From Butyrivibrio fibrisolvens 16/4 (GTDB lineage Bacteria; Bacillota; Clostridia; Lachnospirales; Lachnospiraceae), in contig FP929036.1 in assembly GCA_000209815.1 (NCBI GenBank), forward strand, positions 1,075,110 to 1,139,109: a DNA stretch of 64,000 bases, read 5' to 3'. The notes beneath the pieces were generated by a model. That model was given only the letters and a program-made list of their open reading frames with translations. It did not search any database and had not been told where the DNA came from. The stretch's first letter is position 1. Every line of letters starts with the position of its first letter. Positions 445-22,155 of the stretch are shown here, in pieces. Position numbers and translations under genes: made by a program.

Positions 445-457
445 GGGGATTTTTGTT

Positions 458-1073: not shown

Positions 1074-1095
1074 AACAATGGAGCGAGCTTGAGTT

Positions 1096-1875: not shown

Positions 1876-1882
1876 AATATAC

Positions 1883-1914
1883 ACCCCAAGGGTTAAGGCC
1901 CTTGGGGTATTTTT
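1883..1914 (+). terminator. intrinsic terminator after ZIP gene
   Basis: Perfect 10-bp stem ACCCCAAGGG / CCCTTGGGGT (1883-1892 with 1899-1908), 6-nt loop, followed by a T-rich tail. Confidence 0.85.
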
Positions 1915-1950
1915 ATGTCATTATATCAAAATGAATTGAGCACAATGTAG

Positions 1951-2008
1951 TTGACAAATACCCTAAGGGGGTATATATTTATATCAGTAAGATACCCCGA
2001 GGGGGTAT
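1951..2008 (+). promoter_or_regulatory. copper-responsive promoter with two CsoR operators
   Basis: A -35 TTGACA (1951-1956) and -10 TATATT (1974-1979) are separated by 17 bp. A 17-bp pseudo-palindrome ATACCCTAAGGGGGTAT (1958-1974) fills the spacer, and a second, ATACCCCGAGGGGGTAT (1992-2008), sits downstream of the -10. These match the known CsoR operator form (TACCC...GGGTA). Binding would block RNA polymerase until Cu(I) releases CsoR. The csoR start is 27 bp further on. Confidence 0.9.
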
Positions 2009-2034
2009 ATGAGGGCTCTTGAGGAGGAATATTA

Positions 2035-2373
2035 ATGGCAGATGAAAAACATAATAAAGATATAGATCAGGTGGCAGAATGCTGCCATTGTTCCGGAAAG
2101 ACAAAGGAACGAGAAGACAAGGAATATAAGGATTTAATGAATCGCCTAAAAAGAATCGAAGGCCAGGTTAGAGGTGTGGAAGGTATGCTTGAAAATGATG
2201 CCTATTGCACAGATATCCTGATTCAGGTTTCTGCAATAACCAGCGCACTTAATAGCTTTAACAAGGTGTTGCTTGCAAATCATATGCGTTCTTGTGTAGC
2301 AGAAAATATTCGTGAAGGAAATGATGAGATTATAGATGAGCTTGTAGTGACACTACAAAAGCTTATGAAATAG
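2035..2373 (+). CDS. csoR: copper-sensing transcriptional repressor CsoR
   Basis: A 112-residue CsoR/RcnR family repressor. The Cu(I) ligand set is visible as Cys58, His83 and Cys87, with the same 25- and 4-residue spacing as characterised CsoR proteins. The conserved DNA-contact stretch [16 protein letters not shown] is at about residues 37-52. The N-terminus has extra cysteines (ECCHC, 16-19) not needed for the core site. The start at 2035 is set by GAGGAGGAAT upstream. It precedes copA by 8 bp in the same operon and presumably represses its own promoter through the two operators at 1958-2008. Confidence 0.95.
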
Positions 2374-2381
2374 GAGATATT

Positions 2382-4952
2382 ATGGAACAGTACAATGTTA
2401 CAGGAATGAGCTGTGCAGCTTGCCAGGCCAGGGTAGAAAAAGCCGTTAGTGCTGTAGAGGGTGTTGAGAGCTGTGCGGTCAGCCTTCTTACAAACTCTAT
2501 GGGAGTAGAGGGCAGTGCTTCTTCGGAAGAAATAATAAAAGCGGTTGAGGCTGCAGGATATGGGGCAAGTATAAAGGCTTCCTCAGGTAGCAAAGCTGGT
2601 TCAAATACTGCTAGCGGCTATGAGGATTCTCTTAAGGATACAGAGACACCTAAGCTTAAAAAACGTCTTATAGCATCAGTGATTTTATTGATTCCACTTA
2701 TGTACGTGTCTATGGGACATATGCTGTGGGATTGGCCACTCCCTTCATTTATGGCAGGAAATCACGTGGCTATGGGATTATATCAGCTATTGTTTGCTGG
2801 ATTTATTATGGTAATCAATCAAAAGTTTTTCGTAAGTGGTTTCAAGGGACTTATTCATAAGGCTCCTAATATGGATACCCTTGTGGCTCTTGGAGCTACA
2901 GCAGCCTTTGGATACAGCGTATATGCTCTTTTTGAAATGAGCTGGGCAGTTCTTGGTACTGACGAAGAATATATAATGTATTTAATGAATCAGTTCTACT
3001 TTGAATCAGCTGCAACTATCCTTACACTTATCACAGTAGGAAAGACTTTAGAGGCCAAATCAAAGGGAAAGACCACAGATGCATTAAAATCCCTTATGAA
3101 GATGGCTCCAAAGACTGCAGTTATACTTGAGGGGGATGTAGAAAAGACTGTCTCTATCGAAGAGGTAAAGGTAGGAGATATTTTTGTTGTAAGACCAGGT
3201 GATTCCATCCCAGTGGATGGAAAAGTAATCAATGGTGAAAGCTCAGTTAACGAGTCTGCCCTTACAGGAGAAAGCGTCCCAGTAGAAAAGCAGGTGGGAG
3301 ATAAAGTATCTGCAGCTACTATTAATACATCAGGCTTTATGACCTGTGAGGCCACAAGGGTAGGAGAAGATACTACACTTGCAGGAATCATCAAAATGGT
3401 TAGCGATGCAGCAGCTACAAAGGCTCCTATTGCAAAGATTGCAGATCAGGTTTCCGGTGTGTTTGTACCAGCTGTAATTGGTATAGCTATCATTACATTT
3501 TTTGCGTGGCTTATAGCAGGACAGACAGTAGGCTATGCCATTGCCAGAGCTGTTTCGGTGCTTGTTATCAGCTGTCCTTGTGCTCTTGGACTTGCTACAC
3601 CAGTCGCCATTATGGTAGGAAATGGTGTAGGTGCAAAATCAGGCATCCTTTATAAGACTGCGGCTTCTCAGGAGATGGCAGGAAAGACTCAGATAGTTGC
3701 CATTGATAAGACTGGAACTGTTACTACAGGTGAAATGAAGGTTACAGATGTTGTTGTGGCAACAGGAGTCCAGGAAGAAGAGCTTCTAAAGGTGGCATAC
3801 GCGCTTGAAGCTAAAAGCGAGCATCCTATTTCAAAGGCCATAGTAGAGTATGCTAAGGCTGGTGATGTTTCTTTAGTTGAGACTGAACAGTTCGAGGCTC
3901 TTTCAGGAAACGGTCTTAAAGCTGTTATTGATGATACAAAGATTTTTGGAGGAAACGAAAAGTTTATTACTGGAATAACCGGTGTCATTAATGACAATTT
4001 AAAATCCCAGATGGCATCTCTTTCAGCTGAGGGCAAGACACCAATACTTTTTGTCAAAGATTCAGCTGTTATTGGAATTATTGCCGTGGCTGATACCATC
4101 AAGGAAGATTCGGCTGATGCCATCAATCAGCTTAAAAATATGGGCCTTCACGTAGTATTGCTCACAGGCGATAATGAAATCACTGCAAATGCCATTGCAA
4201 AGCAGGCTGGTGTTGATGAAGTGATTGCAGGTGTATTACCTGATGGAAAGGAAGCTATCATTAGAGAGCTGATGAATCACGGCAAGGTGGCTATGGTAGG
4301 TGATGGAATTAATGATGCACCGGCCCTCACTCGTGCGGATATTGGTATTGCCATTGGCGCAGGAACAGATATAGCTATTGATGCTGCTGATGTGGTACTT
4401 ATGAAGGGCAGCATTTTAGATGTTGCAGCAGCTATTAGAATTTCCAGAGCCACAATCAAGAATATTCACGAGAATCTATTCTGGGCATTCTTCTACAATA
4501 TAATTGGAATACCACTTGCAGCAGGTTGTTATGTGGCTGCATTTGGATGGACCTTAAATCCAATGTTTGGTGCAGCAGCTATGGGATTATCAAGCTTCTG
4601 TGTAGTATCCAATGCACTTAGACTAAATCTAATCAAGGTCTACGAAAGCAAAAAAGATAAAAGATTAAAAAATGCCATTTCAGGCAATTTAATAATAAAA
4701 GAATCAGTGGATTCATTAAAAAATGAATCAGGAAAGGAAGGTACAGATATGAAAATTACAGTTAAAGGAATGATGTGTGGTCATTGTGAGGCTCACGTTA
4801 AGAAGGCGCTTGAGGCCATTGATGGAATCGAAAGCGCAGTTGCTTCTCACGAAGAAAACCTTGTTACAATCCAGACATCAAAGGATGTAGATGAGGCCCT
4901 TATAAAGGCGGCTGTAGAAGAGGCAGGTTACGAGTACGTAGGAATTCTCTAA
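2382..4952 (+). CDS. copA: copper-exporting P1B-type ATPase with fused C-terminal CopZ-like domain
   Basis: An 856-residue Cu(I) efflux ATPase of the cytoplasmic membrane. An N-terminal heavy-metal-binding domain has GMSCAAC (residues 8-14). The transmembrane metal site is CPC (Cys398/Cys400), the phosphorylation motif DKTGT has Asp442, and the hinge GDGIND begins near residue 640. The usual ATPase ends around residue 775. A linker then leads to a second metal-binding domain with GMMCGHC (796-802), which looks like a fused CopZ chaperone. A ribosome-binding-site-like GGAAAGGAAG (4731-4740) precedes an in-frame ATG at 4749, so free CopZ could also be made. CsoR controls the operon. Confidence 0.95.
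4731..4952 (+). other. possible internal start producing free CopZ-like chaperone
   Basis: GGAAAGGAAG (4731-4740) lies 8 nt before an in-frame ATG at 4749 inside copA. Translation from it gives a 67-residue protein starting [13 protein letters not shown], the exact size and start of free-standing CopZ proteins. This is inferred from sequence only. The alternative is that a separate copZ gene became fused to copA and the old start signal is a relic. Confidence 0.45.
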
Positions 4953-4968
4953 TAAATATGTGTAGGCT

Positions 4969-5010
4969 AATAGTCAGCTATAAATTCAATTTATGGCTGG
5001 CTATTATTTT
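4969..5010 (+). terminator. intrinsic terminator after copA
   Basis: Long stem of about 18 bp, allowing G-T pairs: 4969-4986 with 4988-5005, followed by a T-rich tract. A closely related hairpin recurs at 27073-27115, also just upstream of a sulfur promoter. Confidence 0.75.
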
Positions 5011-5023
5011 TACTAATTATTAC

Positions 5024-5057
5024 ACCTATTGACTAGATAGGTAATTAAAGTTATAGT
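5024..5057 (+). promoter_or_regulatory. sulfur-operon promoter with overlapping inverted repeat
   Basis: A -35 TTGACT (5029-5034) and -10 TATAGT (5052-5057) are 17 bp apart. A perfect inverted repeat ACCTAT-N7-ATAGGT (5024-5042) covers the -35 element, where a bound protein would block transcription. The same repeat, with small changes, occurs at 16886, 19377 and 27127 before other sulfur genes. A CymR/IscR-type (Rrf2 family) repressor is the likely binder by analogy; no such gene is in the window. Confidence 0.65.
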
Positions 5058-5127
5058 ATCAACAAGTTAAATGAATCAGAAAACATATCTCAGTAGAAAC
5101 TGACTGCTGAGGGAAAGGAGCAAGACT

Positions 5128-5262
5128 ATGAGAGCAAATATGGATAGTAACTGTTGTTGCATGTGTATGTGTAAAATGCTATACGCTCAGGCAGATGATG
5201 CTACAGAGTGCATGGCTTCTAGTCTTGCACCTGAATCAGATTACTTCGTAAATGCGGATTAA
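5128..5262 (+). CDS. Cys-rich leader peptide (44 aa)
   Basis: A short frame with a strong GGGAAAGGAG ribosome site (5111-5120). It encodes a 44-residue peptide whose codons 9-15 read CCCMCMC, with a further Cys at codon 28; five of those seven codons are Cys. The stop (5260-5262) lies 6 bp before the terminator hairpin at 5269. Position, the Cys run and the promoter upstream suggest a leader peptide for cysteine-responsive attenuation: ribosome stalling at the Cys codons would leave the following RNA free to fold differently. The role is inferred; polycysteine leader ORFs with this job are known in mycobacteria. Confidence 0.7.
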   Translation: MRANMDSNCCCMCMCKMLYAQADDATECMASSLAPESDYFVNAD

Positions 5263-5268
5263 TCGAAG

Positions 5269-5302
5269 GCCACTGCTTGGGAAACCAGGTGGTGGCTTTT
5301 TT
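5269..5302 (+). terminator. attenuator-like intrinsic terminator after Cys-rich leader
   Basis: A 12-bp stem (5269-5280 with 5285-5296; all pairs Watson-Crick or G-T) closes a GAAA tetraloop and is followed by six T (5297-5302). It sits between the leader peptide stop and the tRNA-like element, so everything downstream depends on read-through. Confidence 0.75.
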
Positions 5303-5373
5303 GGTGCTATAGCCGCTGGAAGGGCATAGGTGCGGCAGCACTGAAGTTGTTGGTTCGAATCCAACTAGCACCA
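5303..5373 (+). tRNA. tRNA-Cys-like element, non-canonical
   Basis: A cloverleaf can be drawn over 70 nt plus A73. The acceptor stem is a perfect 7 bp (GGTGCTA/TAGCACC). The T arm is canonical, GTTGG-TTCGAAT-CCAAC. A 3-bp D stem GCC/GGC with an 8-nt loop resembles bacterial tRNA-Cys. The anticodon arm is weak (TAGGT/ACTGA, one mismatch and one G-T) with an 8-nt loop GCGGCAGC that contains GCA, the Cys anticodon. The discriminator is A rather than the U expected for tRNA-Cys, and the anticodon loop is one base too long. It starts on the base after the attenuator T-run and precedes yezD. It could be a degraded tRNA, a minor tRNA or a regulatory mimic. Confidence 0.5.
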
Positions 5374-5407
5374 GTTCTATCAATGAAAAATGTAAAAGGA
5401 GAGAAAA

Positions 5408-5551
5408 ATGGCTGAGGTAAAAGAGGTTACTGAAAAACAACTGGCACAAATTAAGGATTATATCGAGTCAATAAAATATGGCTCCGTTAACATTGTTATA
5501 CAAGATGGAAAAATTATCCAAATAGATAAGAGTGAAAAAATTAGATTATAA
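5408..5551 (+). CDS. yezD: YezD family (DUF2292) small protein
   Basis: A 47-residue protein with AAAAGGAG upstream (5394-5401). It carries the DUF2292 hallmark: an amphipathic N-terminal helix, then KYGSVNIVIQDGKIIQIDKSEKIR. Proteins of this family are short, of unknown biochemistry, and often sit at the head of sulfur or cysteine operons in Firmicutes. Here it follows the Cys leader and tRNA-like element, supporting a role in sulfur metabolism. Another hairpin terminator follows it before metK. Confidence 0.8.
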   Translation: MAEVKEVTEKQLAQIKDYIESIKYGSVNIVIQDGKIIQIDKSEKIRL

Positions 5552-5577
5552 ACAGGTGGAACTGACTAGACAAACTA

Positions 5578-5629
5578 GAGGTTCAAAATCACGGTCTCAT
5601 TTGCTGTGGTTTTGAGCCTCTTTATTTTT
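5578..5629 (+). terminator. intrinsic terminator between yezD and metK
   Basis: A 15-bp stem (5578-5592 with 5606-5620, including G-T pairs) is followed by a T-rich tail. It would cut transcription before metK unless there is read-through or a further promoter, which I cannot identify with confidence. No SAM-riboswitch core is visible here. Confidence 0.7.
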
Positions 5630-5669: not shown

Positions 5670-6869
5670 ATGGGAAAGTTATTCACATCAGAATCAGTAA
5701 CAGAAGGACATCCAGACAAAATTGCAGATCAAATTTCTGATGCAATCCTTGATGAGCTACTTGCTCAGGATCCATATTCGAGAGTTGCTGCTGAAACAAC
5801 AGTTGCAACAGGACTGGCACTTGTAGTTGGTGAAATTACAACAAAGGCGTATGTGGACATTGCAAAGATTGCAAAGGAGACAATCCGAGAGATTGGATAT
5901 GTAAACAATGTAGATGGCTACAACGCAGATTCAATAGCAGTGCTTACATCTATCGACGAGCAGTCAGCAGATATAGCACTTGGAGTTGATAAGGCGTATG
6001 AATCAAAGCAGGAAGGAGAGACAAAGGATTTTGGAACAGGTGCAGGAGACCAGGGAATCATATTTGGATATGCAACAGATGAAACACCAGAGTACCTTCC
6101 ACCAGCTATTTCATTTGCTCATCGTCTTACTAGACAACTTACAAAGGTTCGAAAGGATGGAACACTTCCATACCTTAGACCAGATGGAAAATCTCAGGTA
6201 ACAGTAGAGTTTGCAGAAGATGGACAGACTGTAAAGAGAGTACATACCATTGTTATTTCAACACAGCATTCTGAGGATGTAACTCTTGAGCAGATTCGTA
6301 AAGACGTAATTGAATACGTCATAAAGCCGGTAATTCCAGAAGAACTCCTAGACGAAAACACCATTTATTACGTAAATCCAACTGGAAGATTTGTTATCGG
6401 CGGTCCACAGGGTGATGCAGGACTGACAGGACGAAAGATAATCGTGGATACCTATGGTGGCACAGGTCGTCACGGCGGCGGTGCTTTCTCTGGAAAGGAT
6501 CCAACAAAAGTTGATCGTTCTGCAGCCTATGCAGCCAGATGGGTGGCTAAGAACTTGGTTGCAGCAGGTGTGGCAAAAAGACTTGAAGTAGAGCTTGCAT
6601 ACGCAATCGGCGTAGCAAAGCCTGTATCAATAGCAGTTGACTCATTTGGAACAGGAGTGATTGATGATGAAAAAATTGTTGAAATCATTGAAAAAGTATT
6701 TGATCTTAGACCAGCAGCAATCATCGATGCCCTTAATCTTCGTAGGCCAATCTACAAGCAGACTGCTGCTTATGGACATTTCGGCAGGACCGATGTGGAC
6801 TTACCTTGGGAGCATTTAGATAAGGTGGATGAGATAAAAAGCTTATTGAAGATATTAGAGTGGATTTAG
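5670..6869 (+). CDS. metK: S-adenosylmethionine synthetase
   Basis: Makes SAM from methionine and ATP in the cytoplasm. The N-terminus [24 protein letters not shown] holds the methionine and ATP site, and [13 protein letters not shown] and [16 protein letters not shown] are the signature P-loop-like regions. The 399-residue frame fits the family. The last codons follow an A5 run at 6836-6840. Adding one A would replace the final ten or so residues with a longer tail ([17 protein letters not shown]...) ending at 6913, only 22 bp from the next gene, so the C-terminus may be misread. It heads the nitrogenase-like gene set, with MTA/SAH nucleosidase downstream, which ties the locus to SAM and methylthio turnover. 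Confidence 0.95.
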
Positions 6870-6935
6870 CGGTACAGCATATCTCTGAGGCAAGAGATGC
6901 TGTGACAGTATAAAGATAGAAAGGTAAGAGGAGCA

Positions 6936-7811
6936 ATGGCAGAGAAAATTGGTAAGCATATAGCGATATATGGAAAAGGTGGAATTGGAAAATCAACAAC
7001 AACATCAAATATTAGTGCAGCCCTTGCAGAGGCAGGATACAGAGTTATTCAGATTGGTTGTGATCCAAAGAGTGATTCAACAAATACACTTAGAGGTAAC
7101 AATTATCTTCCAACAGTTCTTGATAGCTTAAGAGAAGGTAACAAGATTCATCTTGATGATATTTCCGTAAAAGGATTTGGAGGAGTGCTTTGTATTGAAT
7201 CTGGTGGACCGGTTCCAGGCGTAGGATGCGCAGGACGAGGAATTAATGCAGCAGTAAATCTTCTGCAGGAATTAAATCTTTTTGAAGAGTTTAAGCCAGA
7301 TTACGTTTTATATGACGTACTTGGTGATGTTGTTTGTGGTGGTTTTGCTGTTCCTATTCGTGATGGAATTACAGATAGAGCATACGTTGTATCATCATCA
7401 GATTTTATGGCTTTATATGCTGCTAATAATCTTTTCAAGGCTATCAACAAATATGCCCCAACAGGTGGTGCAAAGCTTGGTGGCGTAATAGCAAACAGTA
7501 TGAAGCCTGGCTATCACAGAGAAATCGTTGATGATTTCGTAGCAAAGACTGGAACAAGTATTGCAGGTTATGTAAATCGTTCCCTTGATGTTCAGCAGAG
7601 TGAGCTTTATGGAAAGACAGTTATTGAGGCAAAGCCTAATAGTGCTCAGGCTGATATTTATAGAAATCTTGCCAAGTACATTGCAGAAAATGAAAACCTG
7701 GTGGTACCAAATCCACTTGGTTCTGCAGAGTTACGTGACTGGGCAAGAAGCTGGGGAGACCGTATATACGATATTGAAAATGGTGTAGTAGGAGTAGCAG
7801 AAGCCATCTAA
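6936..7811 (+). CDS. nitrogenase iron protein-like reductase (NifH/NflH family)
   Basis: A 291-residue ATP-dependent electron donor. The P-loop GKGGIGKS is at 13-20. The two cysteines that hold the shared [4Fe-4S] cluster of the homodimer are Cys98 (GVGCAGRG) and Cys134 ([10 protein letters not shown]). Arg101 sits at the position modified by ADP-ribosylation in NifH. The protein would dock on the NflD-NflK partner encoded next and pass electrons with ATP hydrolysis. Context (metK, sulfonate-type transporter, MTA/SAH nucleosidase, no nifE/N/B/V) argues against nitrogen fixation and for a nitrogenase-like enzyme of sulfur metabolism. Confidence 0.9.
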
Positions 7812-7837
7812 TACTACAGGAAAGGAGAACCTAAAAG

Positions 7838-9232
7838 ATGAGTTTTTTAGATGAAAGAAAAGCCTTAACAAGAGAAAAACGTCTAAGTTCCCTTAGCCAT
7901 TTTCATGGAACCCTTGAAGGATTAATTGATGAAACATCAGGAGCAGAAATCAAGCAGCGAATCAGAACCTTTTCACAGGTTCATGTAGACGAGACAATAT
8001 ATGCTTTTGATGTGCTGTCAAAGATAGAGGATGCGGCAATTATCGTTAATGGTTCCATCGGATGCTCGGCGCTTGGAATTGGGCAGGATCAGGAAAAAGA
8101 CTTTTCATGGTTTTCTACAAATCTTGTGGAAAGAGACACCATACTTGGTGGAGATGATAAGCTTCGTGAGGCCATCCTCAGAGCCAATGAAGAAAAGCAT
8201 CCAAAGGCAATATTTATTATTGGCACTCCTGTTGTTGCCATCAACAATGATGATATTAATTCGGTAATTTTAGAACTGGAGGATGAGATAGGTATTCCTA
8301 TTATCAGTATCTATACAGATGGATTCAAATCAAAAACACCAGTAACCGGATTTGATATTGTGACACACAGTTTGCTGAAGTATTTGGTAGATAAGAATGT
8401 GGATTTAAAGGAAGACTTCATTAACGTTATTTCTTTTTCTGAAAACATAGAGGATGTGGCTTCCATAGCAAGCATATTGCACGAGCTTAATATTAAATTC
8501 CAGGTGCTTCCTAGATTTTCTAATGTGGATGAAATCAGGAAGGCATCAAAAGCCAGAGCTACTGTTGTGCTAAATCCTGATGAAGGAGATTACTTGGCCA
8601 GAGAGCTTCAGGAGGTATATGGGGTACCTTATATAGAAAGTGAAGCGCCAATAGGTTTTAGAGGAACCAAGAATTTCTTGCAGAGACTAGGCAGCTTTTT
8701 AAATATTGAAGAACAGGTTGTTAAATACATTGATGAGGCGGAAGCAAAAATATCAGAACAATTTGTCAGCAATATCTTAGAGGATAAAAGAGTCTTTGTA
8801 GATGCTTCCCTTAGCAAAGTGTATGGCTACGGTAGATTACTGACAAATCTTGGTGGACAAGTGGTTGGTTTTTCTTCTCCATTTGTGGATTTGGAAAACA
8901 GAAAGCAGCTAAAGAGATTTGATTTCCTAAATAAAAATGCCATTGCAATCATAGGGAATGGTCAACAGTTTGAGAAAGCAAATGAGTTAGAAAAAAATGG
9001 TATTGATATTTACTTCAGTGAGAATGTAGGTAATTCCTTTGTTACTGATGAAGGGGCTGTAGTTGTTTCCACAAGAAACAGAGTTACCTACGGATTTGAA
9101 GGAGTAGATGTTATTATCGCTTCCATTAGAAGGGCACTTAGGCTTCAGGGAAAAAGCACAAGTGGTAGTAGCTACAAAGATAGTTTTAAACGACGAAGTG
9201 GTAACTGGTATGTAAAGCAGGAGGTAAGTTAA
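7838..9232 (+). CDS. nitrogenase-like component 1 subunit, D-type, Cys-poor
   Basis: A 464-residue member of the NifD/NifK/BchN-BchB fold. GSIGCSALG (Cys76) matches the NifD Cys88 region. The NifD motif ECPVGLIGDDI is recognisable as GTPVVAINNDDI, with its cysteine replaced by Thr. It is the only Cys in the whole protein, and there is no Cys or His that could bind a FeMo-type cofactor at the NifD Cys275/His442 positions. It can therefore supply only one ligand to a cluster shared with the next subunit. The ORF ends in an ATGA-type overlap with nflK. I infer a simple [4Fe-4S] enzyme, closer in principle to protochlorophyllide reductase or CfbD than to nitrogenase. Confidence 0.85.
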   Translation: MSFLDERKALTREKRLSSLSHFHGTLEGLIDETSGAEIKQRIRTFSQVHVDETIYAFDVLSKIEDAAIIVNGSIGCSALGIGQDQEKDFSWFSTNLVERDTILGGDDKLREAILRANEEKHPKAIFIIGTPVVAINNDDINSVILELEDEIGIPIISIYTDGFKSKTPVTGFDIVTHSLLKYLVDKNVDLKEDFINVISFSENIEDVASIASILHELNIKFQVLPRFSNVDEIRKASKARATVVLNPDEGDYLARELQEVYGVPYIESEAPIGFRGTKNFLQRLGSFLNIEEQVVKYIDEAEAKISEQFVSNILEDKRVFVDASLSKVYGYGRLLTNLGGQVVGFSSPFVDLENRKQLKRFDFLNKNAIAIIGNGQQFEKANELEKNGIDIYFSENVGNSFVTDEGAVVVSTRNRVTYGFEGVDVIIASIRRALRLQGKSTSGSSYKDSFKRRSGNWYVKQEVS

Positions 9233-10664
9233 TGTCAAACGTTATTAAAAATCCAAGAAATGGATGTGCACTTCACGGTGCTTTACAGACAGTACAGGAA
9301 ATAGAGGGAGCTGTTCCAGTAGTTCACGCTAATGCAGGCTGTGGAGTTATAAATTATCTTGCTAATAAGACTGTAGGAAATGGAGCAAGCAGATATAGCG
9401 GATTTGCTACTCCAGGAACAGCAGTGCAGGAAAGACACGTTATTTTCGGTGGAGCTTCAAGACTTCGTGAACAAATAAAAATACTATTAAGGTTGTAAAT
9501 GGAGATTTATATGTCATTTTAAACAGCTGTGAATCTGCAATGGTAGGTGATGACGTGGATGCCATGACCCGAGAAATTGTAGAGCAAGGGGAGCCAGTTG
9601 TTGACACTCTTATAGCAGGCTTTAATGGTGGCAGTCATTATGGATATGAGCATGTTATTTACGACATTCTAAAGTCCATTGACGGAGTGAAAAAGAATGA
9701 GAAAAGTACTGACGAAAAGCTTATTAATATCTTTGGAATTGTTCCTGAGAAGGATCCATATTGGCAGGGAAATCTGGAGGAAATCAGAAGGATTTTTGCA
9801 GGGGTTGGTTTAAAGGCAAATCTATTCTTTGGAGTATACGGAGGCGTGAATGATTTGGTAAATGCTAAAAATGCTGTAGCATCGGTTGTTTTTAGCAGGT
9901 GGGGAGAGCTTCCAGCAAAGCTTTTAAAGGAAAGATTTGACGTACCATATATCTCGGTTAGTTCATTGCCCAATTCGGCAAGTGATGAGAGAGAACTTAT
10001 TGAAAAGGTTTCCGAGTACGCCAAAATTGATTCGGAAGTTAAGGAGAGCTTCTTAGAGAGTGAGGGGAGATATGAGAGGAATTACCTATCCAGAATCAGG
10101 GATGATATTTTCGAATATGACCTTGGAAAGAGAACACTTATTGTAGGTGATGAGGAGCAGGTAATTCGTTACGGAAAATTATTTAAGGAAGTATTTGGTG
10201 CAAGAGTAGTGGGAGCAGTTCTTACAGATGCCTTAAAGAAGGATGAGGAGCACGAGACAGATAACACTGAAATCCTTGAAGCTGTAGCAGAAAATATTTA
10301 CATCACATCAGATGAAAAGGATATTGAGGACATAATCAAGCGAAGCCGTGCACAGGTTGTAATTGGAAGCTCATTGGAGAAAAGAATTGCAGAGAAAAAT
10401 AATGTTTCACTCCTTGAGTTTAGCTATCCAATTTATCACAGAGCAATTCTCAATCAGACTACAGTGGGAGTGAGAGGCGCAGTGGAATTTGTAAGTGATT
10501 ACATTACAACAGTTAAGCAGGCTGAAAAGGAAAAATCTCAGGTGCTTCACGACTACTTAAAGCAGCTGAAGAATCAGAACAGCTGGCAGGGACATACTTC
10601 TAAAAAGGGTCAGGTGAAACAGATAAATCTTGTTTCTGAATTGGCATCGAGAGAATCTATATAA
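9232..10664 (+). CDS. nitrogenase-like component 1 subunit, K-type, frameshifted
   Basis: Read through one missing A in the A5 run 9477-9481, this is a protein of about 477 residues. Three cysteines sit where NifK/BchN bind a P-cluster-like centre: Cys12 (RNGCALHGA), Cys37 (ANAGCGVINY) and Cys100 (LNSCESAMVGDD). The C-terminal FSYPIYHRAILNQTTVGVRGA corresponds to the conserved NifK/NifE end. With Cys76 of the D-type subunit it would give a 3+1 Cys site for a [4Fe-4S] cluster. As given, the frame stops at 9498 and reopens at 9540; the missing residues (KVVNGDLYVILNSCESA) are family-like, so the break is probably an assembly error. Confidence 0.85.
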
Positions 10665-10683
10665 GCATACAGGAGGTAGACTA

Positions 10684-11748
10684 ATGAAGAAATTGAAAAA
10701 GACATTGTTTGCGGCTATAGTTGGTACTTTTGTTTTATCAACTGTAACAGCTTGTGGAAGTTCGGCAGACAATATAGTGGACAATAAAGAGGAAGAAATC
10801 ACAGCTTCCAGTGACGGTGCGAGAGAAGTAAATATTGGATTTGTTGATACTTCTGGTGCAAATATCTTACTAGGCAGCGAAGGAATTGCCAGAGACAATG
10901 GATATTTTGAGGAAGAATTTGAAAAGATTGGGGTAAAGGTAAATCTTGTCCCTATGTCAGGTGCTGGTCCAGCGATAAATGAGGCATTGGCTTCTGGAAG
11001 TCTTGATATCGGAATTCTTGGAGATGTTCCAGCTGTAAATGGAAAGTCAAACGGAATTGATACAACAGTAATTGCTTTTAATGGTTTGAACAACTTTATA
11101 GTTATCTCTGCAAATCCTGATTCAGGAATCGATTCAGTAAAGGATTTGAAGGGCAAAAAGGTAGCAACTCAAAAGGGTGCATTTATGCATAGATTACTTT
11201 TATATGCCCTTGAAGAGCAAGGACTTACTATTGATGATATCGAATTTGTTCCAATGACGGGTCAGGATGCTCTGGCAGCTCTTGAGACAAAGAGCATAGA
11301 TGCAGCTGTTGTCCAGCCTAATGATGTGACATACAGACTTTCTAGGGAGAATGGATTTAGAGAAATCTTATTTAGCAATAACCACGAAGGTTGGGCAGCA
11401 GGTTCTATTACTGAAATTAGAACAGAGTACTTAAATTCGAATCCAGATGTTGCTGTAGCATTTCTAAAGGCACTTCTCAGAGCTAATGAGTACATTGAAG
11501 CTAAAGAGAATGCTCTAAAGGACCAGTGGATTGCAGCAGGATATTCAGCAGATAGCTATGAGTATGCTTATCCAAATCATGACAATTATTCAAGAATTGA
11601 AGCAACAGATGATGTTATTGAAAATGCTAAAAAGACACTGGCATTCCTTCAGGAGAATGATTTATCCGATGGGGATTTTGACGTAGATGCCTGGTATGAC
11701 CTTTCATATTACGAAAAGGCTAAGGCAGAGTTTGAAGGCAGCAAATAA
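10684..11748 (+). CDS. ABC importer binding lipoprotein, sulfonate/taurine (SsuA/TauA) type
   Basis: A 354-residue lipoprotein, with signal peptide and lipobox STVTAC ending at about residue 20. The mature part has the NMT1/SsuA fold features: LLGSEGIARDNGYFEEEF near the start, then LASGSLDIGILGDVPAV and DLKGKKVATQKGA. Start 10684 is chosen for CAGGAGG just upstream; earlier in-frame codons overlap nflK. It belongs to a complete importer with the permease at 13008 and the ATPase at 14515, interrupted by the radical SAM gene and the nucleosidase. The substrate is probably a small organosulfur compound handled by the nitrogenase-like enzyme; this is inference. Confidence 0.85.
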   Translation: MKKLKKTLFAAIVGTFVLSTVTACGSSADNIVDNKEEEITASSDGAREVNIGFVDTSGANILLGSEGIARDNGYFEEEFEKIGVKVNLVPMSGAGPAINEALASGSLDIGILGDVPAVNGKSNGIDTTVIAFNGLNNFIVISANPDSGIDSVKDLKGKKVATQKGAFMHRLLLYALEEQGLTIDDIEFVPMTGQDALAALETKSIDAAVVQPNDVTYRLSRENGFREILFSNNHEGWAAGSITEIRTEYLNSNPDVAVAFLKALLRANEYIEAKENALKDQWIAAGYSADSYEYAYPNHDNYSRIEATDDVIENAKKTLAFLQENDLSDGDFDVDAWYDLSYYEKAKAEFEGSK

Positions 11749-11767
11749 TACAAGATAGGAGAAAAAA

Positions 11768-12997
11768 ATGAGCACTATAAAAGACAGATTATATAATGAG
11801 CTAAAATTCAAAGCTAAAGTAAATGTAGATGGAATAAAGGTAGATCCAAAGATTTTTAAGAATCTTGATTTAGGTGGTAAATATCAAGAGCAGATTCACG
11901 CATTATTTGAAATGGATCATGTAGCTCATCCAGAGGTTCTGTTCCCTTGCAATTTCACATCACCAAGCGGACTTCGCTATTCATTTTCTTGGGATCCTAG
12001 ATCAAGCGTTGAGATTAAATATATTAATGATCAGTTTGTACTGTTCGATAACGGGGTAGAGAAATTCCCAATCGAGTTTGATCACAGACCACAATACTAT
12101 AGCAAGAAAACTTCCGATGGAACAGAAATGTCTCACGTAGCTACATATTCAAATGGTGTTGTAAGCATTGCATATAGTAATGAGTGCTCACTTAAGGAAA
12201 AAGGCTTGGACTGCTTATTCTGCAATGCCAATGCTACAAAGGATACATACGCTGAAAAGGAGAACATTCAGTGGAAGAATCCAAGACAGATTGGTGAGAC
12301 AGTTGCCGAGGCATTTAGACTCGGTGAAGGAAGACACGTAAATCTTACAGGTGGCTTTGTACCAGAACGTCGAGAGGTAGATTACTACATTGATGTAGCA
12401 GAGGCAATTCAGGATGAGACAGGTCTTGAGGACTTTAATGGAACTGCTGTTATTGGCGCTCCTGCTGATTTATCTGTAATCGAAAAATATAAAGAAGCTG
12501 GATTTAGAACACTTGCTATTCAGCTTGAAGTATGGGATGAAAACTATTTCAAGGTTATTTGCCCAGGAAAAGAAAAAGAGTGTGGCGGAAGAGAAAACTG
12601 GATAGCAGCACTTGATAAGGCGGTATCAGTCTTTGGAAGAGGCCGAGTAAGAACTGGTTTCGTTGCTGGAATTGAGCCAAAGGAAAGAACTCTTGAGGGT
12701 GTAGAAATTCTTACTAAGAAGGGGATTATCTGCCTTACAAATGCTTGGTGCCCAAACCCAGGTTCAAAGCTTGAAGGTCACAGAACACCTACACATGAGT
12801 GGCACTATGATTTAGCACAGAAAACATATCTGTTACATAAGCAGGCAGGAATCAGTTATGAGCAGTACTTGGATGTTTCTCCATCTCCAGATTTCTTAGT
12901 ACTTGATTTCTATAGAATTGAAGAGGAAAGATTACCTATTTTCAATGAAGAAGGTATTGAAAGCGAGAAGGAGAATAAGACTGCTTTAGCTGTATAG
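11768..12997 (+). CDS. radical SAM protein with unusual CX8CX2C cluster motif
   Basis: A 409-residue protein. Cys140, Cys149 and Cys152 form CX8CX2C (NECSLKEKGLDCLFC) in place of the standard CX3CX2C, followed by LTGGFVPERREVDYY, which resembles the GGE region of radical SAM barrels. A further Cys-rich segment (ICPGKEKECGG, about 260-270) and an NAWCPNPGS segment near 330 could hold an auxiliary cluster or substrate. It lies inside the transporter genes of the nitrogenase-like locus, so a role in activating its substrate or metal centre is plausible. It is not close to NifB, which has a different motif arrangement. Function unknown. Confidence 0.75.
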   Translation: MSTIKDRLYNELKFKAKVNVDGIKVDPKIFKNLDLGGKYQEQIHALFEMDHVAHPEVLFPCNFTSPSGLRYSFSWDPRSSVEIKYINDQFVLFDNGVEKFPIEFDHRPQYYSKKTSDGTEMSHVATYSNGVVSIAYSNECSLKEKGLDCLFCNANATKDTYAEKENIQWKNPRQIGETVAEAFRLGEGRHVNLTGGFVPERREVDYYIDVAEAIQDETGLEDFNGTAVIGAPADLSVIEKYKEAGFRTLAIQLEVWDENYFKVICPGKEKECGGRENWIAALDKAVSVFGRGRVRTGFVAGIEPKERTLEGVEILTKKGIICLTNAWCPNPGSKLEGHRTPTHEWHYDLAQKTYLLHKQAGISYEQYLDVSPSPDFLVLDFYRIEEERLPIFNEEGIESEKENKTALAV

Positions 12998-13007
12998 GAG
13001 GACAAAT

Positions 13008-13769
13008 ATGAGTAACAAGCTAAAGGATGCTAATGTTAGTTTTATAATTCCATTTTTGATTGTAGTGGCATGGTTTTATGCCACAACAATCAATAACATG
13101 TCAGGCGCCATTTTGCCAAAGATTAGTGATGTTTTCACCGCATTTAGAAATCTTACTCAAAAGGGACAGCTACAGCAGGATATTATTGCAAGCTTAATAA
13201 GAGTTGTTCAAGGATATGCAATTGCATCAGTGCTTGGGATTTCACTGGGAGCTTTGGCAGGAATGATTCCATTTATTAGAAAGCTTATATTACCAGCAGC
13301 AACGGCCATTAGACAGGTACCTATCATTGCCTGGATTCCACTTATTATACTATGGTGTGGGATTGGCGAATTATCAAAGGTTGTCGTTATAGTTATCGCA
13401 GCTACGTTTCCTATTATGATTAATACTATGAGTGGTGTTTCATCCACATCTGATTTGTTACTTGAGGTAGCAAGCCTATACAAATTAGGAAAATGGGAAA
13501 CCTTCCTAAAGGTATATTTACCAAATGCCCTTCCATCGATTTTAGTAGGATTAAAGCTAGGTATGGGAGCTTCCTGGATGGCAGTGGTGGCTGCAGAGAT
13601 GCTTGGTGCATCATCAGGAATTGGCTATCGATTAAATGATGCAAGAAGTATGCTTAAATCAGATCAGGTAATTCTTTGCATTATTTTAATTGGTTTCATT
13701 GGCATAGGAACAGACTGGCTTTTATCCAAGTTTTTCAAGAAGATTACACCATGGGAGAATAGTAAATGA
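13008..13769 (+). CDS. ABC importer permease, SsuC/TauC type
   Basis: A 253-residue inner-membrane permease with about six transmembrane helices. It has the BPD_transp_1 coupling loop (EVASLYKLGKWETFLKVYLPNALPSI...) typical of nitrate/sulfonate/taurine importers. The stop overlaps the ATG of the nucleosidase gene (ATGA), so both are translationally coupled. It works with the binding protein at 10684 and the ATPase at 14515. Confidence 0.9.
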   Translation: MSNKLKDANVSFIIPFLIVVAWFYATTINNMSGAILPKISDVFTAFRNLTQKGQLQQDIIASLIRVVQGYAIASVLGISLGALAGMIPFIRKLILPAATAIRQVPIIAWIPLIILWCGIGELSKVVVIVIAATFPIMINTMSGVSSTSDLLLEVASLYKLGKWETFLKVYLPNALPSILVGLKLGMGASWMAVVAAEMLGASSGIGYRLNDARSMLKSDQVILCIILIGFIGIGTDWLLSKFFKKITPWENSK

Positions 13770-14473
13770 AACGAGTAGCAATAGTAAGTGCGATGGATGA
13801 GGAAACTGAGTACATTCATGAATATCTAACCAATAGAGAAGGTTGGTCAAGAACAAAGGAAAATCTATATAGGAATGAAAAGAAGGACATAGATCTTTTT
13901 GTAAAGGTTCTTGGTGTGGGAAAGGTAAATGCAGCATACAATACGGCAGATGTTATCAGTGAGTTTAACCCAGATTTTATTGTAAATATCGGTGTTTCGG
14001 GTGGACTTGCTCCAAATGCAAAAAGAGGTACAGTTGCCATAGGAAAGAGCTATGTTCAGACTGATTTTCATCCATATATTGAGGACAACTATCCGGAAAT
14101 CAAAGACACAGAGGACTGGATTATAGACGGACTAGAAAAATCTGCCAAGGATAATAATTTTGATTACATCACAGGAAGGCTTGCTACAGGCGATTTCTTC
14201 TTAAGTGATGAAACAGAAAGACAAAATATTATCGATACCTTTGACCCAGTTTCTTTCGATATGGAAACAGCAGCCATTGCTCAGGTGGCTACCGCAAAAA
14301 ATGTTGAGTTTGCAGCACTTCGTATTTTTTCAGATTTGGCTAATGATGAGTCCATTTCAATTATTGAAAATAAGAAGGCAAATAATATTGACGACAAAGA
14401 AAAAGAAGTAGACAAGAAATTAAAAATTAGACCTACAGAACTTCTTGTTCCATTTTTAGAGGAAATTGGCTGA
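13766..14473 (+). CDS. 5'-methylthioadenosine/S-adenosylhomocysteine nucleosidase
   Basis: A 235-residue PNP-superfamily nucleosidase. It opens with VAIVSAMDEETEYI. VNIGVSGGLAP and SFDMETAAIAQVA (purine and ribose site; the Glu-Thr-Ala of METAA) and a late RIFSDLANDES, with the catalytic Asp, are all visible. It cleaves MTA or SAH to adenine plus methylthioribose or S-ribosylhomocysteine. Its presence inside the nitrogenase-like transporter operon with metK implies that the system consumes or recycles methylthio by-products of SAM. Starts in an ATGA overlap with the permease gene. Confidence 0.9.
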   Translation: MKRVAIVSAMDEETEYIHEYLTNREGWSRTKENLYRNEKKDIDLFVKVLGVGKVNAAYNTADVISEFNPDFIVNIGVSGGLAPNAKRGTVAIGKSYVQTDFHPYIEDNYPEIKDTEDWIIDGLEKSAKDNNFDYITGRLATGDFFLSDETERQNIIDTFDPVSFDMETAAIAQVATAKNVEFAALRIFSDLANDESISIIENKKANNIDDKEKEVDKKLKIRPTELLVPFLEEIG

Positions 14474-14514
14474 TATAAATTTAGAACCGTCTACTAGAAA
14501 AGAGGAGAACAGCC

Positions 14515-15302
14515 ATGGGCAATCAGGATAAAAACATTATAAAAATTCATAATCTTAACAAGGAATTTGTGGTTGATAAGAATCCTATAAGAGTATTGAG
14601 TGACATTAATCTGGAAATCAAAGAGGGAGAATTTATTACGATAGTAGGTCATTCTGGGTGTGGAAAAAGTACTTTGCTGAAAATTATGTGTGGACTAGTA
14701 GATTACGAAGATGGAACTGTTGAAAGAAATGGTCATCCTGTAGAAGGTCCAGGTCCCAATTGCGGTATGGTTTTTCAAGATCATAGACTACTTCCATGGC
14801 TAAAAATCAAAGATAACGTAGGATTTGGATTAAAAAATCTTTCAAAGGAAGAGAAAGAAAAACAGTTCTAAGTCATCTTAAAATGGTTGGTCTGGAAGGT
14901 TTCGAGAATAGTTATCCTGCTCAGCTTTCAGGTGGAATGAGCCAACGAGCAGCCATAGCAAGAGGCCTTGCAAATAATCCAACTATTCTACTTCTGGATG
15001 AGCCTTTCGGTGCATTAGATGCACTGACAAGGATTCAGATGCAAAAGGAGATTTTAGAAATACAGGAGAAAGAAAAGACCACTATGGTAATGGTTACACA
15101 CGATATTGATGAGGCAATTTATCTAGGAGATAGAATTGTAGTAATGTCTGCTAGACCAGGAGAAATAAAGGAAATCATAGAGACAGATCCTGTAGAATCA
15201 AAAAAGCGTGGTAGCGCTAAATTTGCAGAGTACAAGAAAAAGATATATGACTATTTCTTCGAAGATTCAGATGTAGATTATGAAATTGAATATGTAATAT
15301 AG
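14515..15302 (+). CDS. ABC importer ATPase, SsuB/TauB type, frameshifted
   Basis: The Walker A GHSGCGKST, Q-loop VFQDHRLLPW, signature LSGGMSQRAAIARGLA, Walker B ILLLDEPFGALD and switch His (THDIDEA) are all present, but in two frames. The break is at the A5 run 14858-14862. Adding one A restores KEKTVLSHLKMVGLEG and a single protein of about 262 residues, normal for this family. It energises the importer with the binding protein at 10684 and permease at 13008. Last gene of the nitrogenase-like transcription unit. The break is very likely an assembly error. Confidence 0.9.
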
Positions 15303-15472: not shown

Positions 15473-16111
15473 TTGAGCAAATTAGTTTTATATCATGGTT
15501 CGGACAAGATAATAAGTTCCCCTAAGTTTGGGTATGGAAAGCCCTTCAATGATTATGGGCAGGGCTTTTATTGCACTAAGCATATAAACCTGGCCAAGGA
15601 ATGGGCAGTAGAAGCTGAGAGAGACGGTTTTGTTAATGTATATGAAATAGATGATAAGGGACTTAAGATTCTAAATCTTAATGATGAAAAGTATTCAATT
15701 TTGCATTGGATTACACTGCTGATTGAACATAGAACCTTTAGTATCAACAGCCCACTGACAAGGGATGGTATTGGGTTTTTGCAGCGAAACTATCATATAG
15801 ATATAGATGAATATGATGCAATAATAGGTTATAGGGCAGATGATTCATATTTTTCATTTGCCAGAGCCTTTTTGGCAAATACTATTAGCATTGAACAGTT
15901 GGAAGAAGCTATGTACCTTGGTGAATTGGGACAACAGTTCTTTATAAAGAGTGAAAAGGCTTTTTCAAAGCTTAAGTTTATAGAGGCAAAACAAGTGGAT
16001 TGCACAGAGTATTATCCTAAGAAGTCTGCTAGGGACAGCAAAGCCAGGGAAAGCTATAATACTATTGCTGATGCAATGGATAAAAAGGAACATATCTTAT
16101 TGATCTTGTAA
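15473..16111 (+). CDS. DUF3990 family protein, likely ADP-ribosyltransferase-like toxin
   Basis: A 212-residue protein starting at TTG 15473, with AAGGTG 7 nt upstream. The N-terminal LYHGSDKII, the DYGQGFYCTKHINLAKEWA block and IIGYRADDSYFSFARAF match DUF3990 proteins, whose fold is related to ADP-ribosyltransferases. These genes pair with small or HTH antitoxins; here the partner lies 15 bp downstream. Catalytic residues cannot be assigned with certainty. The target is unknown. Confidence 0.7.
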   Translation: MSKLVLYHGSDKIISSPKFGYGKPFNDYGQGFYCTKHINLAKEWAVEAERDGFVNVYEIDDKGLKILNLNDEKYSILHWITLLIEHRTFSINSPLTRDGIGFLQRNYHIDIDEYDAIIGYRADDSYFSFARAFLANTISIEQLEEAMYLGELGQQFFIKSEKAFSKLKFIEAKQVDCTEYYPKKSARDSKARESYNTIADAMDKKEHILLIL

Positions 16112-16126
16112 GAAAGGAGCAGTAGA

Positions 16127-16759
16127 ATGGTTCATCCTTATAAAGAAATATATCTTAGTGATGCTATGGCAAATTTAGCAGAAGCATTTCAGACTGCAGC
16201 TCATGATTACAAGTTAAGTCTAGATTTTTTTATGAGCCTGTTCATCGTTTCAGGAATAGCAGCACAGTTTGAAGTGGGAAATCCCAAATACATAGTTGGA
16301 AAATCTGGGGCGGAGCTTACTCAGGAGATAGTCCTTAGAACAAATGCTACAGAACTAAGGGAGATTGATACATCCTTTAAAGCACCTAAAGAGGATTATT
16401 GGACAGGTTGGGTGTTAGCATATTATCAGTGGTACTCGGCCAAGAGCTTCAAGGAAATACAAAGCATTATCACCCCAGAAGAATTAATGGAGAAATACAA
16501 TCCATATCATGAAATGGATGAAATGCAGATAGTAGAATATATTAATTCCAAAGTCGACAAAGCAAGAGCAGTAAGCAGGCTTCAGATGTATCGTAAATAC
16601 TTTGAAATGTCCCAAAGTGAGCTGGCGAAGGAAGCAGATGTTAATTTGCGCACATTGCAGCAGTATGAAATTGGGGCAAAGGATATAGGTAAAGCCTCGG
16701 TGGCTACACTTGAATCTTTATGTAAGGTTTTGAAATGTGACGTAAAGGATTTATTATAG
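16127..16759 (+). CDS. XRE-type HTH antitoxin partner of DUF3990
   Basis: A 210-residue protein. The N-terminal ~130 residues (LAEAFQTAAHDYKLSLDFFMSLF...) resemble DUF3791-like partners of DUF3990 genes. The C-terminal ~60 residues are a helix-turn-helix: RLQMYRKYFEMSQSELAKEADVNLRTLQQYEIGAKDIGKAS. The DNA-binding domain would bind the repeats at 15394-15445 and repress the operon. Domain order (toxin-binding first, HTH last) is the reverse of many antitoxins. Starts after AAAGGAG. Confidence 0.75.
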   Translation: MVHPYKEIYLSDAMANLAEAFQTAAHDYKLSLDFFMSLFIVSGIAAQFEVGNPKYIVGKSGAELTQEIVLRTNATELREIDTSFKAPKEDYWTGWVLAYYQWYSAKSFKEIQSIITPEELMEKYNPYHEMDEMQIVEYINSKVDKARAVSRLQMYRKYFEMSQSELAKEADVNLRTLQQYEIGAKDIGKASVATLESLCKVLKCDVKDLL

Positions 16760-16904: not shown

Positions 16905-16928
16905 AAATAGTTGAAAGGAGAGAATGAT

Positions 16929-18305
16929 ATGGCGGATATAACAGTAGGAAGAAATCAAGTGAAAAATGATGACATAGTTACTACATCAAAATCACAGATT
17001 TCAGATTTATGGAAGAAGGAAGATTGGCTGACAATTTGGATTGGAGCAATCCTTATAGTCGTAGCTGCGGTTTCAGTGTTAACGGGAACATTCGATTTCA
17101 GCGCAGCAAAGTTTTCTACATGGGGAAACGGAGTAAGTGTACTAGAGCAGCTAAGTACAGGTGCATTCTGGTTGGCACTTATTCGAACCTTTTTAGTTAC
17201 AGGTGCGTTGTTTACTGTAGGCATAAAGCTAAAAGGAGAGTCTGTAAAGGATTATATTCCAGCATACTCGGTACTATTTTTACTGGCAATTTTAGTAAGA
17301 TTTATCTCAGCGGAATATACTCTTAACAGGTATTTAGAGTGGGCCTTCTGGGCACTTATTGTTGGACTTGTAATTTCCAACACCGTTGGAGTTCCAAAGT
17401 GGTTAAAGCCAGCTGTTCAGACTGAGTATTACATTAAGGCAGGACTTGTGGTAATGGGATTCTCAGTACTGTTTTCAAATATCATCAATTTCGGATTATA
17501 TGGTCTTGGAATTGCATGGATTGTTACTCCAGTAGTAATCATTTTTATGTGGTTTTTTGGAACAAAGGTGTTGAAGATTGACAACAAACCACTTGTTATT
17601 ACACTTGCAACTGCAACTTCTGTTTGCGGTACATCAGCAGCAATTGCAGCAGGTGCTTCATCAAAGGCAAAGAAGACAGATCTTTCACTTGCAGTTTCAA
17701 TTTCCATCATTTTTACAGTAATCATGATGGTATTCGAACCAATTATTATTAAGGCTACAGGCCTTGGAGAGCTTATGGGAGGAGCTCTTATCGGCGGAAC
17801 AGTAGATTCAACTGGCGCTGTTACAGTAGCAGGTACAGCTCTTGGTGAGACAGCACAGACAGCAGCCGTACTTGTAAAATCCATTCAGAATATCCTTATA
17901 GGATTTATCGCATTTGCGGTAGCAATTTTCTTCACAGCACATGTTGAAGGCGGTGAGGGAAAAAGTAATGTCACAGCAGCAGAAATTTGGTACAGACTTC
18001 CAAAGTTTATATTAGGTTTCTTTGCAGCTTCACTTATTGCATCATTTATTTTCCTTCCAGCAGTTGGTAAGGATTCTGTGGCAGGAATCAACAGTGTACT
18101 TGATCAGTACAAGAACTGGGCATTTGTTCTTGCATTTACAAGCATTGGACTTGATACAAACTTTAGAGAAATCAAGGAACAGTTTAAGGGAGGTAAGCCA
18201 CTTACACTTTATGTTGTAGGGCAGCTTTTCAATATCGTACTTACATTCTTGGCTGTATATGTGTTACTTTCAGGAAAGTTTTTCCCTATTCCAACACTTC
18301 AGTAG
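16929..18305 (+). CDS. YeiH family (UPF0324) putative sulfate/sulfur-compound transporter
   Basis: About 458 residues with about 11 hydrophobic segments. It has the family core: IKAGLVVMGFSVLFSNI, TSVCGTSAAIAAG and LIGGTVDSTGAVTVAG. Members are annotated as putative sulfate exporters, but direct evidence is thin. ATG 16929 is chosen because AAAGGAG (16914-16920) lies 8 nt upstream; the frame itself opens earlier at a TTG that overlaps that site. The inverted-repeat operator upstream places it in the sulfur regulon. Confidence 0.85.
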   Translation: MADITVGRNQVKNDDIVTTSKSQISDLWKKEDWLTIWIGAILIVVAAVSVLTGTFDFSAAKFSTWGNGVSVLEQLSTGAFWLALIRTFLVTGALFTVGIKLKGESVKDYIPAYSVLFLLAILVRFISAEYTLNRYLEWAFWALIVGLVISNTVGVPKWLKPAVQTEYYIKAGLVVMGFSVLFSNIINFGLYGLGIAWIVTPVVIIFMWFFGTKVLKIDNKPLVITLATATSVCGTSAAIAAGASSKAKKTDLSLAVSISIIFTVIMMVFEPIIIKATGLGELMGGALIGGTVDSTGAVTVAGTALGETAQTAAVLVKSIQNILIGFIAFAVAIFFTAHVEGGEGKSNVTAAEIWYRLPKFILGFFAASLIASFIFLPAVGKDSVAGINSVLDQYKNWAFVLAFTSIGLDTNFREIKEQFKGGKPLTLYVVGQLFNIVLTFLAVYVLLSGKFFPIPTLQ

Positions 18306-22139: not shown

Positions 22140-22155
22140 TAGGGAGGATTTAAAA

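Follow-up and report, generated by a model that had tools for sequence, protein, structure and literature searches.

The isethionate reductase IsrBHDK of Rhodobacter capsulatus, described together with the importer SsuCAB (Morimoto et al., 2024; PMC11423573), is a nitrogenase-like system for which genetics in R. capsulatus supports C–S cleavage and sulfite release from isethionate. IsrBHDK models have already been applied to annotate mouse gut genomes, according to PMC12330013. MarBHDK also performs nitrogenase-like C–S cleavage of sulfur compounds, and isethionate lyase IslAB releases sulfite from isethionate anaerobically by radical chemistry (described in PMC11423573). Here we describe an operon in a 64,000-nt stretch of Butyrivibrio fibrisolvens 16/4 (positions 1,075,110–1,139,109 of a 3.16-Mb single-contig genome; hereafter "the window", in whose numbering coordinates are given). 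We consider it probable that this is an Isr-type operon for sulfonate desulfonation, and its enzyme very likely frees sulfur from imported sulfonates, as judged from gene content, residues and phylogeny. An earlier note on this DNA had placed the genes on one strand; profiles confirm every one that it named, all on the + strand, with nflK and the ATPase gene found to be frame-broken:

5670–6869, + strand: metK (TIGR01034, 580 bits), one of two copies in the genome
6936–7811, + strand: nflH, IsrH-type Fe protein (PF00142, 320 bits), with Cys98 and Cys134
7838–9232, + strand: nflD, IsrD-type catalytic subunit (PF00148, 203 bits)
9232–10664, + strand: nflK, IsrK-type catalytic subunit (NifK-like), in two frames with a break near 9480–9495
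10684–11748, + strand: SsuA-type sulfonate-binding lipoprotein (TIGR01728, 158 bits, slightly below the cut-off of 163.5)
11768–12997, + strand: variant radical S-adenosylmethionine (SAM) protein, CX8CX2C, IsrB-like (NF045502 variant_rSAM, 460 bits)
13008–13769, + strand: SsuC-type permease (profile match)
13766–14473, + strand: methylthioadenosine/S-adenosylhomocysteine (MTA/SAH) nucleosidase (TIGR01704, 80 bits, cut-off 74), one of three PNP_UDP_1 genes in the genome
14515–15302, + strand: SsuB-type ATPase, two open reading frames (ORFs) with a break at about 14871–14883

This operon resembles that of R. capsulatus in combining H, D and K with a radical SAM gene and a sulfonate ATP-binding cassette importer, in having a single-Cys D subunit with Pro/Ser and a three-Cys K subunit, and in forming its own clade beside Mar in group IV. 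Unlike the R. capsulatus system, it contains metK and a nucleosidase, its radical SAM protein belongs to another subclade, sulfite reductase and siroheme genes adjoin it, a Cys/tRNA-Cys-like leader precedes it, and several radical SAM cassettes occur in its relatives. The view in the earlier note that no system with this exact gene set was known to be characterised is not supported in view of the 2024 description of IsrBHDK and SsuCAB; the full set with metK and nucleosidase does not appear there, these two terms occurring 0 times in the main text (PMC11423573). IslAB, likened here by its published description, differs in being a glycyl radical enzyme with an activase (PMC11423573).

In a tree of 66 rows, the window NflD falls inside a 32-row IsrD clade (support 100/100, monophyletic in 200/200 bootstraps) whose members come from Lachnospiraceae, Clostridium, Treponema, Azoarcus metagenome-assembled genomes, Chlorobium, Rhodopseudomonas, Rhodovulum and others, and which is separate from MarD, NifD, NifE, AnfD, BchN, BchB and BchZ. 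The tree took 32 of the 34 chosen Isr rows, loci L095 and L104 having no row of suitable length. The proposal in the earlier note of a group IV nitrogenase-like enzyme distinct from Nif holds. Published IsrD has only one P-cluster-type Cys, with Pro/Ser in place of NifD Cys154, and IsrK has Cys at 12, 37 and 99 (PMC11423573). In our alignment of D, which covered 70 of the 79 loci surveyed below and excluded rows outside 380–560 amino acids, the P-cluster-type Cys (C76 in the window) is found in 68 of 70 rows; at the NifD Cys154 site, 67 rows have Pro (P131 in the window) and 3 have Ser. In the column that holds the cluster Cys of MarD, 60/70 rows have Asn/Asp and 0 of the 68 rows listed have Cys, that is, no iron–molybdenum cofactor Cys. 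IsrK carries Cys12 in 71/71, Cys37 in 70/71 and Cys100 in 70/71 rows; the broken K of the window lies outside these rows, and its pieces, read by eye, have the same three Cys. The variant_rSAM model NF045502 matched in the window, Rhodopseudomonas and Rhodovulum, and in the latter two the gene is directly upstream of H, as it is in R. capsulatus (PMC11423573). The clade thus has most of the published residue signature. On these residues, the order of the genes and the tree with its relatives, the window enzyme is filed here as Isr type, and Isr family membership with a role in sulfonate use appears highly probable. Two points weigh against this assignment. In our alignment the column of MarD Cys100 is Asp51 (62/70), and the conserved Arg43 (99%) stands 8 residues earlier and shares no MarD or NifD Cys column; the published Arg of IsrD is at the site of NifD Cys62 (PMC11423573). 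In addition, the putative membership rests on published residues, gene order and the Rhodopseudomonas and Rhodovulum relatives, R. capsulatus not being among the 78 loci from the named-genome scan.

The genome has three Oxidored_nitro matches, namely D and both K pieces, and nifEN is therefore absent from it. The absence of nif cofactor genes claimed in the earlier note thus stands for nifEN; as to NifB, the radical SAM protein of the operon has no match, and NifB elsewhere was not searched for. Profile scores lie below cut-off for CfbD (34 bits against 268), CfbC (333 against 402), BchB (69 against 490), nifH (374 against 394) and nifD (73 against 654). We reject membership in Mar, Cfb, Bch or Nif on the evidence of the tree, the residues and the profile scores. 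A reductase of the CfbCD or DPOR kind, acting on a cofactor or tetrapyrrole, would share the fold and the matches to those profiles, but the CfbD, BchB and CfbC scores and the sulfonate context leave this explanation with a negligible probability. Mar or a close variant, making methanethiol from methylthio compounds with metK and nucleosidase in methylthio salvage, has in its favor that 9d9u and 9fmg (E 2e-39) are the nearest solved structures, the latter being the Rhodospirillum rubrum Mar complex, and that Mar too breaks C–S bonds. However, the 3 MarD rows of our tree, R. rubrum among them, form a fork of their own (98/94, or 100/100 when one unlabelled relative is included), and the three top-scoring Isr rows are 28–29% identical to MarD, compared with 79% for Rhodopseudomonas MarD. 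D lacks two of the three P-cluster Cys of MarD as well as its cluster Cys, and the importer is of sulfonate type. As described in PMC12552129, MarBHDK has a P-cluster, an [Fe8S9C] cluster and a NifB-like MarB; it also differs from the window enzyme in clade and substrate class. MarB is said to retain all NifB motifs, whereas the operon's radical SAM protein has no NifB-model match (no genome-wide NifB search was made). We regard the Mar explanation as very improbable, and the methylthio link drawn in the earlier note is not supported, given the separate clade, the missing Mar cysteines, the sulfonate-type importer and the nearby sulfite reductase. As a separate observation, Ruminiclostridium hungatei (locus L100) has 28 Oxidored_nitro matches, some of them fragments, including Nif-, Mar- and Isr-type genes and several unassigned pairs, and its genome would be useful for sorting nitrogenase-like functions.

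The Isr-type assignment fits the surroundings of the operon. The importer's binding protein is closest to solved SsuA, and the following features lie downstream, metY being followed by the AsrC-like reductase and then by sulfur-carrier and siroheme genes:

16911–18305, + strand: YeiH-type putative sulfate/sulfite exporter (TIGR00698, below cut-off)
19446–20666, + strand: metY, O-acetylhomoserine sulfhydrylase type (TIGR01326, 441 bits, below the cut-off of 495)
20690–21559, + strand: AsrC-like siroheme sulfite reductase (TIGR02912, 158 bits, below the cut-off of 324)
21823–23633, + strand: thioredoxin, ThiS, MoeB/ThiF and JAB-domain sulfur-carrier genes (profiles)
23717–26636, + strand: hemC, TP-methylase/hemD fusion and Met8-like NAD-binding gene, siroheme route (profiles)

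The AsrC-like gene, 5.4 kb downstream of the isr operon, is the only NIR_SIR match in the genome. No Sat-type ATP sulfurylase (PF01747) was found in the genome with a profile that, as a control, was positive in 5 of 14 genomes, CysDN not having been searched for, and the sulfite reductase may therefore draw on sulfonates or external sulfite instead of sulfate. The region thus appears to encode a full route, with sulfonate import, C–S cleavage, sulfite reductase, siroheme genes and metY. Organosulfur scavenging, as the earlier note proposed, agrees with the sulfonate importer and with a metY nearby to take the product. Whether isethionate itself is the substrate is evenly balanced in our judgment: the window radical SAM protein is 46–48% identical to the purple-bacterial copies, which counts against it, and the substrate may thus differ from the purple-bacterial one.

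The conserved-neighborhood survey suggested by the earlier note was run as one scan of named genomes, giving 78 loci and, with the window, 79; counts refer to the available flanks, some contigs being short. HDK recurs with importer and radical SAM genes: the binding protein is present in 62/79 loci, the permease in 59 and the variant radical SAM gene in 68 (none in 11), and 26 loci have at least two radical SAM genes beside one HDK (21 if only copies of at least 900 bases are counted). After controlling for D, radical SAM distance tracks binding-protein distance (partial rho 0.397, 0/500 permutations), and it hardly tracks D (0.107). With two divergent radical SAM rows removed the value is 0.469, falling to 0.329 outside the genus cluster and 0.300 after thinning (0/1000 each); across versions the partial rho ranges from 0.20 to 0.47 with the binding protein and from 0.06 to 0.12 with D. 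A swap test of the radical SAM protein with the binding protein gave 23 agreements and 3 disagreements. On this co-divergence with the binding protein instead of D, and on the multiple copies beside one HDK, the radical SAM protein looks like a swappable, substrate-linked partner and not a cofactor maturase; that it is a substrate-specific partner we put at about even chances. Several results weigh against it. When the divergent rows are retained, the partial rho is 0.195 after thinning (2/500) and 0.197 outside the genus cluster (3/500); the swap test with the permease is weak (5 agree, 3 disagree); and co-divergence can also result from an importer and a radical SAM gene moving as one piece of DNA.

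Two explanations assign the radical SAM protein other roles. It may be a general HDK activator or maturase in a strict Isr system that uses isethionate only, its diversity being due to horizontal transfer. A maturase would be expected to follow D, yet its correlation with D is the lower of the two ranges just given. The several copies in 26 loci also speak against a maturase, as does the genus cluster, where D is at least 63% identical and radical SAM copies go down to 43%. A role as NifB-type maturase is disfavored by the co-divergence, and the strict Isr explanation as a whole seems to us to have roughly one chance in three. A divergent variant radical SAM gene was also seen in locus L225 (positions 100–5229 of that contig), with a tRNA-Cys-like element, metK and ssuCBA, in a genome (G014) without an Oxidored_nitro match. 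It is conceivable, but unlikely, that the radical SAM protein alone performs the sulfonate chemistry and HDK merely supplies low-potential electrons. The L225 copy comes from a divergent subfamily, reaching 28% with the main-family copy that it matches best. The two proteins closest to it (46% and 37%) are encoded in HDK loci, and its role may therefore differ; moreover, both nflH and nflDK proved essential in R. capsulatus (PMC11423573). The role of the Isr radical SAM partner was left open in the 2024 paper (PMC11423573), and in a search of Creative Commons (CC)-licensed PubMed Central (PMC) papers no description of an Isr core with several radical SAM cassettes came up. Comparison of the radical SAM protein with PDB sequences was uninformative, yielding two chains with E values near 0.9. 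The co-divergence of radical SAM protein and importer binding protein over 79 loci and the multiple radical SAM copies per HDK are newly described here.

A substrate-linked radical SAM partner would consume SAM. MTA/SAH-type nucleosidases clear the 5'-deoxyadenosine formed by radical SAM enzymes, and the nucleosidase of the operon presumably also acts on it. The survey found metK in 41/79 loci and nucleosidase in 25/79. Extra copies of metK and nucleosidase fit SAM turnover; as a point against this, metK is missing from 38/79 and nucleosidase from 54/79 loci, where some contigs are short.

The region upstream of metK has the layout of a control region, in the order inverted repeat over a promoter-like site, Cys-rich ORF, terminator hairpin, tRNA-shaped element and YezD:

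5024–5057, + strand: operator-like inverted repeat ACCTAT..ATAGGT over promoter-like TTGACT-17-TATAGT (promoter 10/12, equally frequent in shuffles)
5128–5262, + strand: Cys-rich leader peptide ORF of 44 amino acids, with CCCMCMC (Cys count compared with shuffles)
5265–5302, + strand: hairpin with T-run resembling an intrinsic terminator (−25.3 kcal/mol, z −7.0; absent from the consensus terminator scan)
5303–5374, + strand: tRNA-Cys-like leader RNA (tRNA-model match, fold and alignment)
5408–5551, + strand: YezD-type small protein, DUF2292 (PF10055, 67 bits)
5577–5621, + strand: terminator-like hairpin ahead of metK (consensus scan)

The sequence CCTAN7GATAGGTAA occurs exactly at just two sites in the genome, the isr leader and upstream of metY-asrC. 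At up to 2 mismatches the window has 7 matches to the operator pattern against 1.6 expected (1/100 shuffles as high); genome-wide, at up to 1 mismatch, there are 7 matches against 6 for the reversed control, and since one-mismatch copies are about as common in the control, only the two exact matches carry weight. A one-mismatch copy was noticed ahead of an ORF that by eye resembles a cysteine desulfurase. Of 11 loci bearing the element (L056 not among them), 10 have a leader ORF with 6–9 Cys, and 0/500 mononucleotide shuffles of the window leader reached 6 Cys. Among five leader hairpins folded, those of the window, L047 and L055 have z of about −7, that of L052 −3.2, and that of L043 is unstable (z −0.07). 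The Cys-codon leader peptide and strong terminator suggest transcription attenuation by cysteine supply, and we think it reasonably likely that cysteine controls the operon.

Among the 60 matches to the tRNA model in the genome, the tRNA-Cys-like element scores lowest (38 bits, the next 48.5), and ARAGORN made no call on it, nor on three loci of the genus (L173, L177, L182). Over 8 distinct element sequences, 159/159 cells pair and 5 pairs have two-sided changes, with the structure taken from the window's fold. The next match of the element model in the genome (43 bits) resembles an ordinary tRNA-Cys with GCA, and of 8 further loci checked, 7 have matches to this model that ARAGORN classes as tRNA-Cys. 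Leaving out of the 24-row RNA alignment L058, which has discriminator U and resembles ordinary tRNA-Cys, 23 elements remain, of which 21 have GCA in the loop and all 23 a purine discriminator, as against U in the ordinary-looking tRNA-Cys of the genome; U73 is a tRNA-Cys identity element according to PMC7609411. The element is strong in 12/29 genus genomes and found at E ≤1e-12 in 16/397 family genomes, including the window's own and one genus genome. Sulfur-related genes follow it in 11 of 14 family loci outside the genus (L219–L232): in 9 of them the element is followed at about 1.3 kb by a nitrogenase-like H gene, one has metK-ssuCBA-radical SAM and one ssuC/A/B, the other three being without such genes in the available stretch. 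A YezD-like ORF stands just ahead of the element in 6 of these 14 (YezD occurs in 27/79 loci of the survey), and in L056 (14928–14999) the element lies 31 bases ahead of metY. ARAGORN calls tRNA-Cys at 14/14 loci outside the genus, so the element there may be a real minor tRNA-Cys. A second nitrogenase-like operon, of a Mar-containing tree branch, was seen at L231 (373–8589) and in the similar loci L219, L220, L222, L224 and L226; the order in L231, the locus read by profiles, is cysteine synthase, yezD-like ORF, tRNA-Cys-like element, nifB-like, NifX-like, nflH, cysteine synthase, nflD, nflK, NifX-like and Rrf2. Counting the isr operons, the element thus goes with two or more nitrogenase-like types of sulfur operon. 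It may act as a decoy, a processing site, a sensor or a true tRNA. Within CC-licensed PMC papers, our literature search found no tRNA-Cys-like or Cys-rich leader on such operons, and a YezD search with the same limit and mostly off-topic results found no such operon leader reported. The leader, with operator, Cys-rich peptide, terminator and a tRNA-Cys-shaped RNA that recurs before other sulfur operons of the family, is newly described.

The frame breaks are, we infer, more likely homopolymer assembly errors than pseudogenes. This preference follows from the intact K of relatives (a single frame of 476–478 amino acids in 6/6 close named relatives examined) and from early ends in two other genes, the thioredoxin at about 22060, whose profile match ends at position 80/103, and hemC at about 24350, whose apparent early end was judged by eye. 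NflD is 99% identical to that of Pseudobutyrivibrio sp. RGIG7529, and because the closest named relatives are Pseudobutyrivibrio records, a Pseudobutyrivibrio of the rumen is the most likely host. The interval 15473–16759, which separates the isr operon from the metY cluster, holds genes for a DUF3990 and a helix-turn-helix protein, a pair with a toxin–antitoxin-like layout.

A mechanism can be proposed in which SsuABC would bring in a low-molecular sulfonate and NflH would hand ATP-driven electrons to NflDK; NflDK and the variant radical SAM protein would jointly break the C–S bond to give sulfite. The AsrC-like siroheme enzyme would reduce sulfite to sulfide, and MetY would fix the sulfide as homocysteine. 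The radical SAM protein, one per importer cassette, would be the substrate-linked part and consume SAM provided by MetK, with the nucleosidase removing 5'-deoxyadenosine; substrate and radical SAM chemistry are both putative. Cysteine would govern expression through the operator, the Cys-codon leader peptide, the terminator and the tRNA-Cys-like RNA. Joining these elements, we tentatively suggest, at somewhat less than even chances, that one reductase works with interchangeable importer and radical SAM cassettes per sulfonate; that substrate-specific, SAM-consuming radical chemistry takes part in the desulfonation itself, served by a dedicated MetK and nucleosidase; and that the switch of cysteine leader and tRNA-Cys mimic is common to other nitrogenase-like sulfur operons.

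Isr is one of few known anaerobic routes that free sulfur from sulfonates, and the present locus would place desulfonation chemistry in Pseudobutyrivibrio of the rumen. In the tRNA-Cys-like leader there may be a novel type of control element that responds to cysteine. The cassette pattern could account for the use of several sulfur sources by one enzyme and, if true, would imply that exchanging the partner enzyme can re-aim a nitrogenase-type engine.

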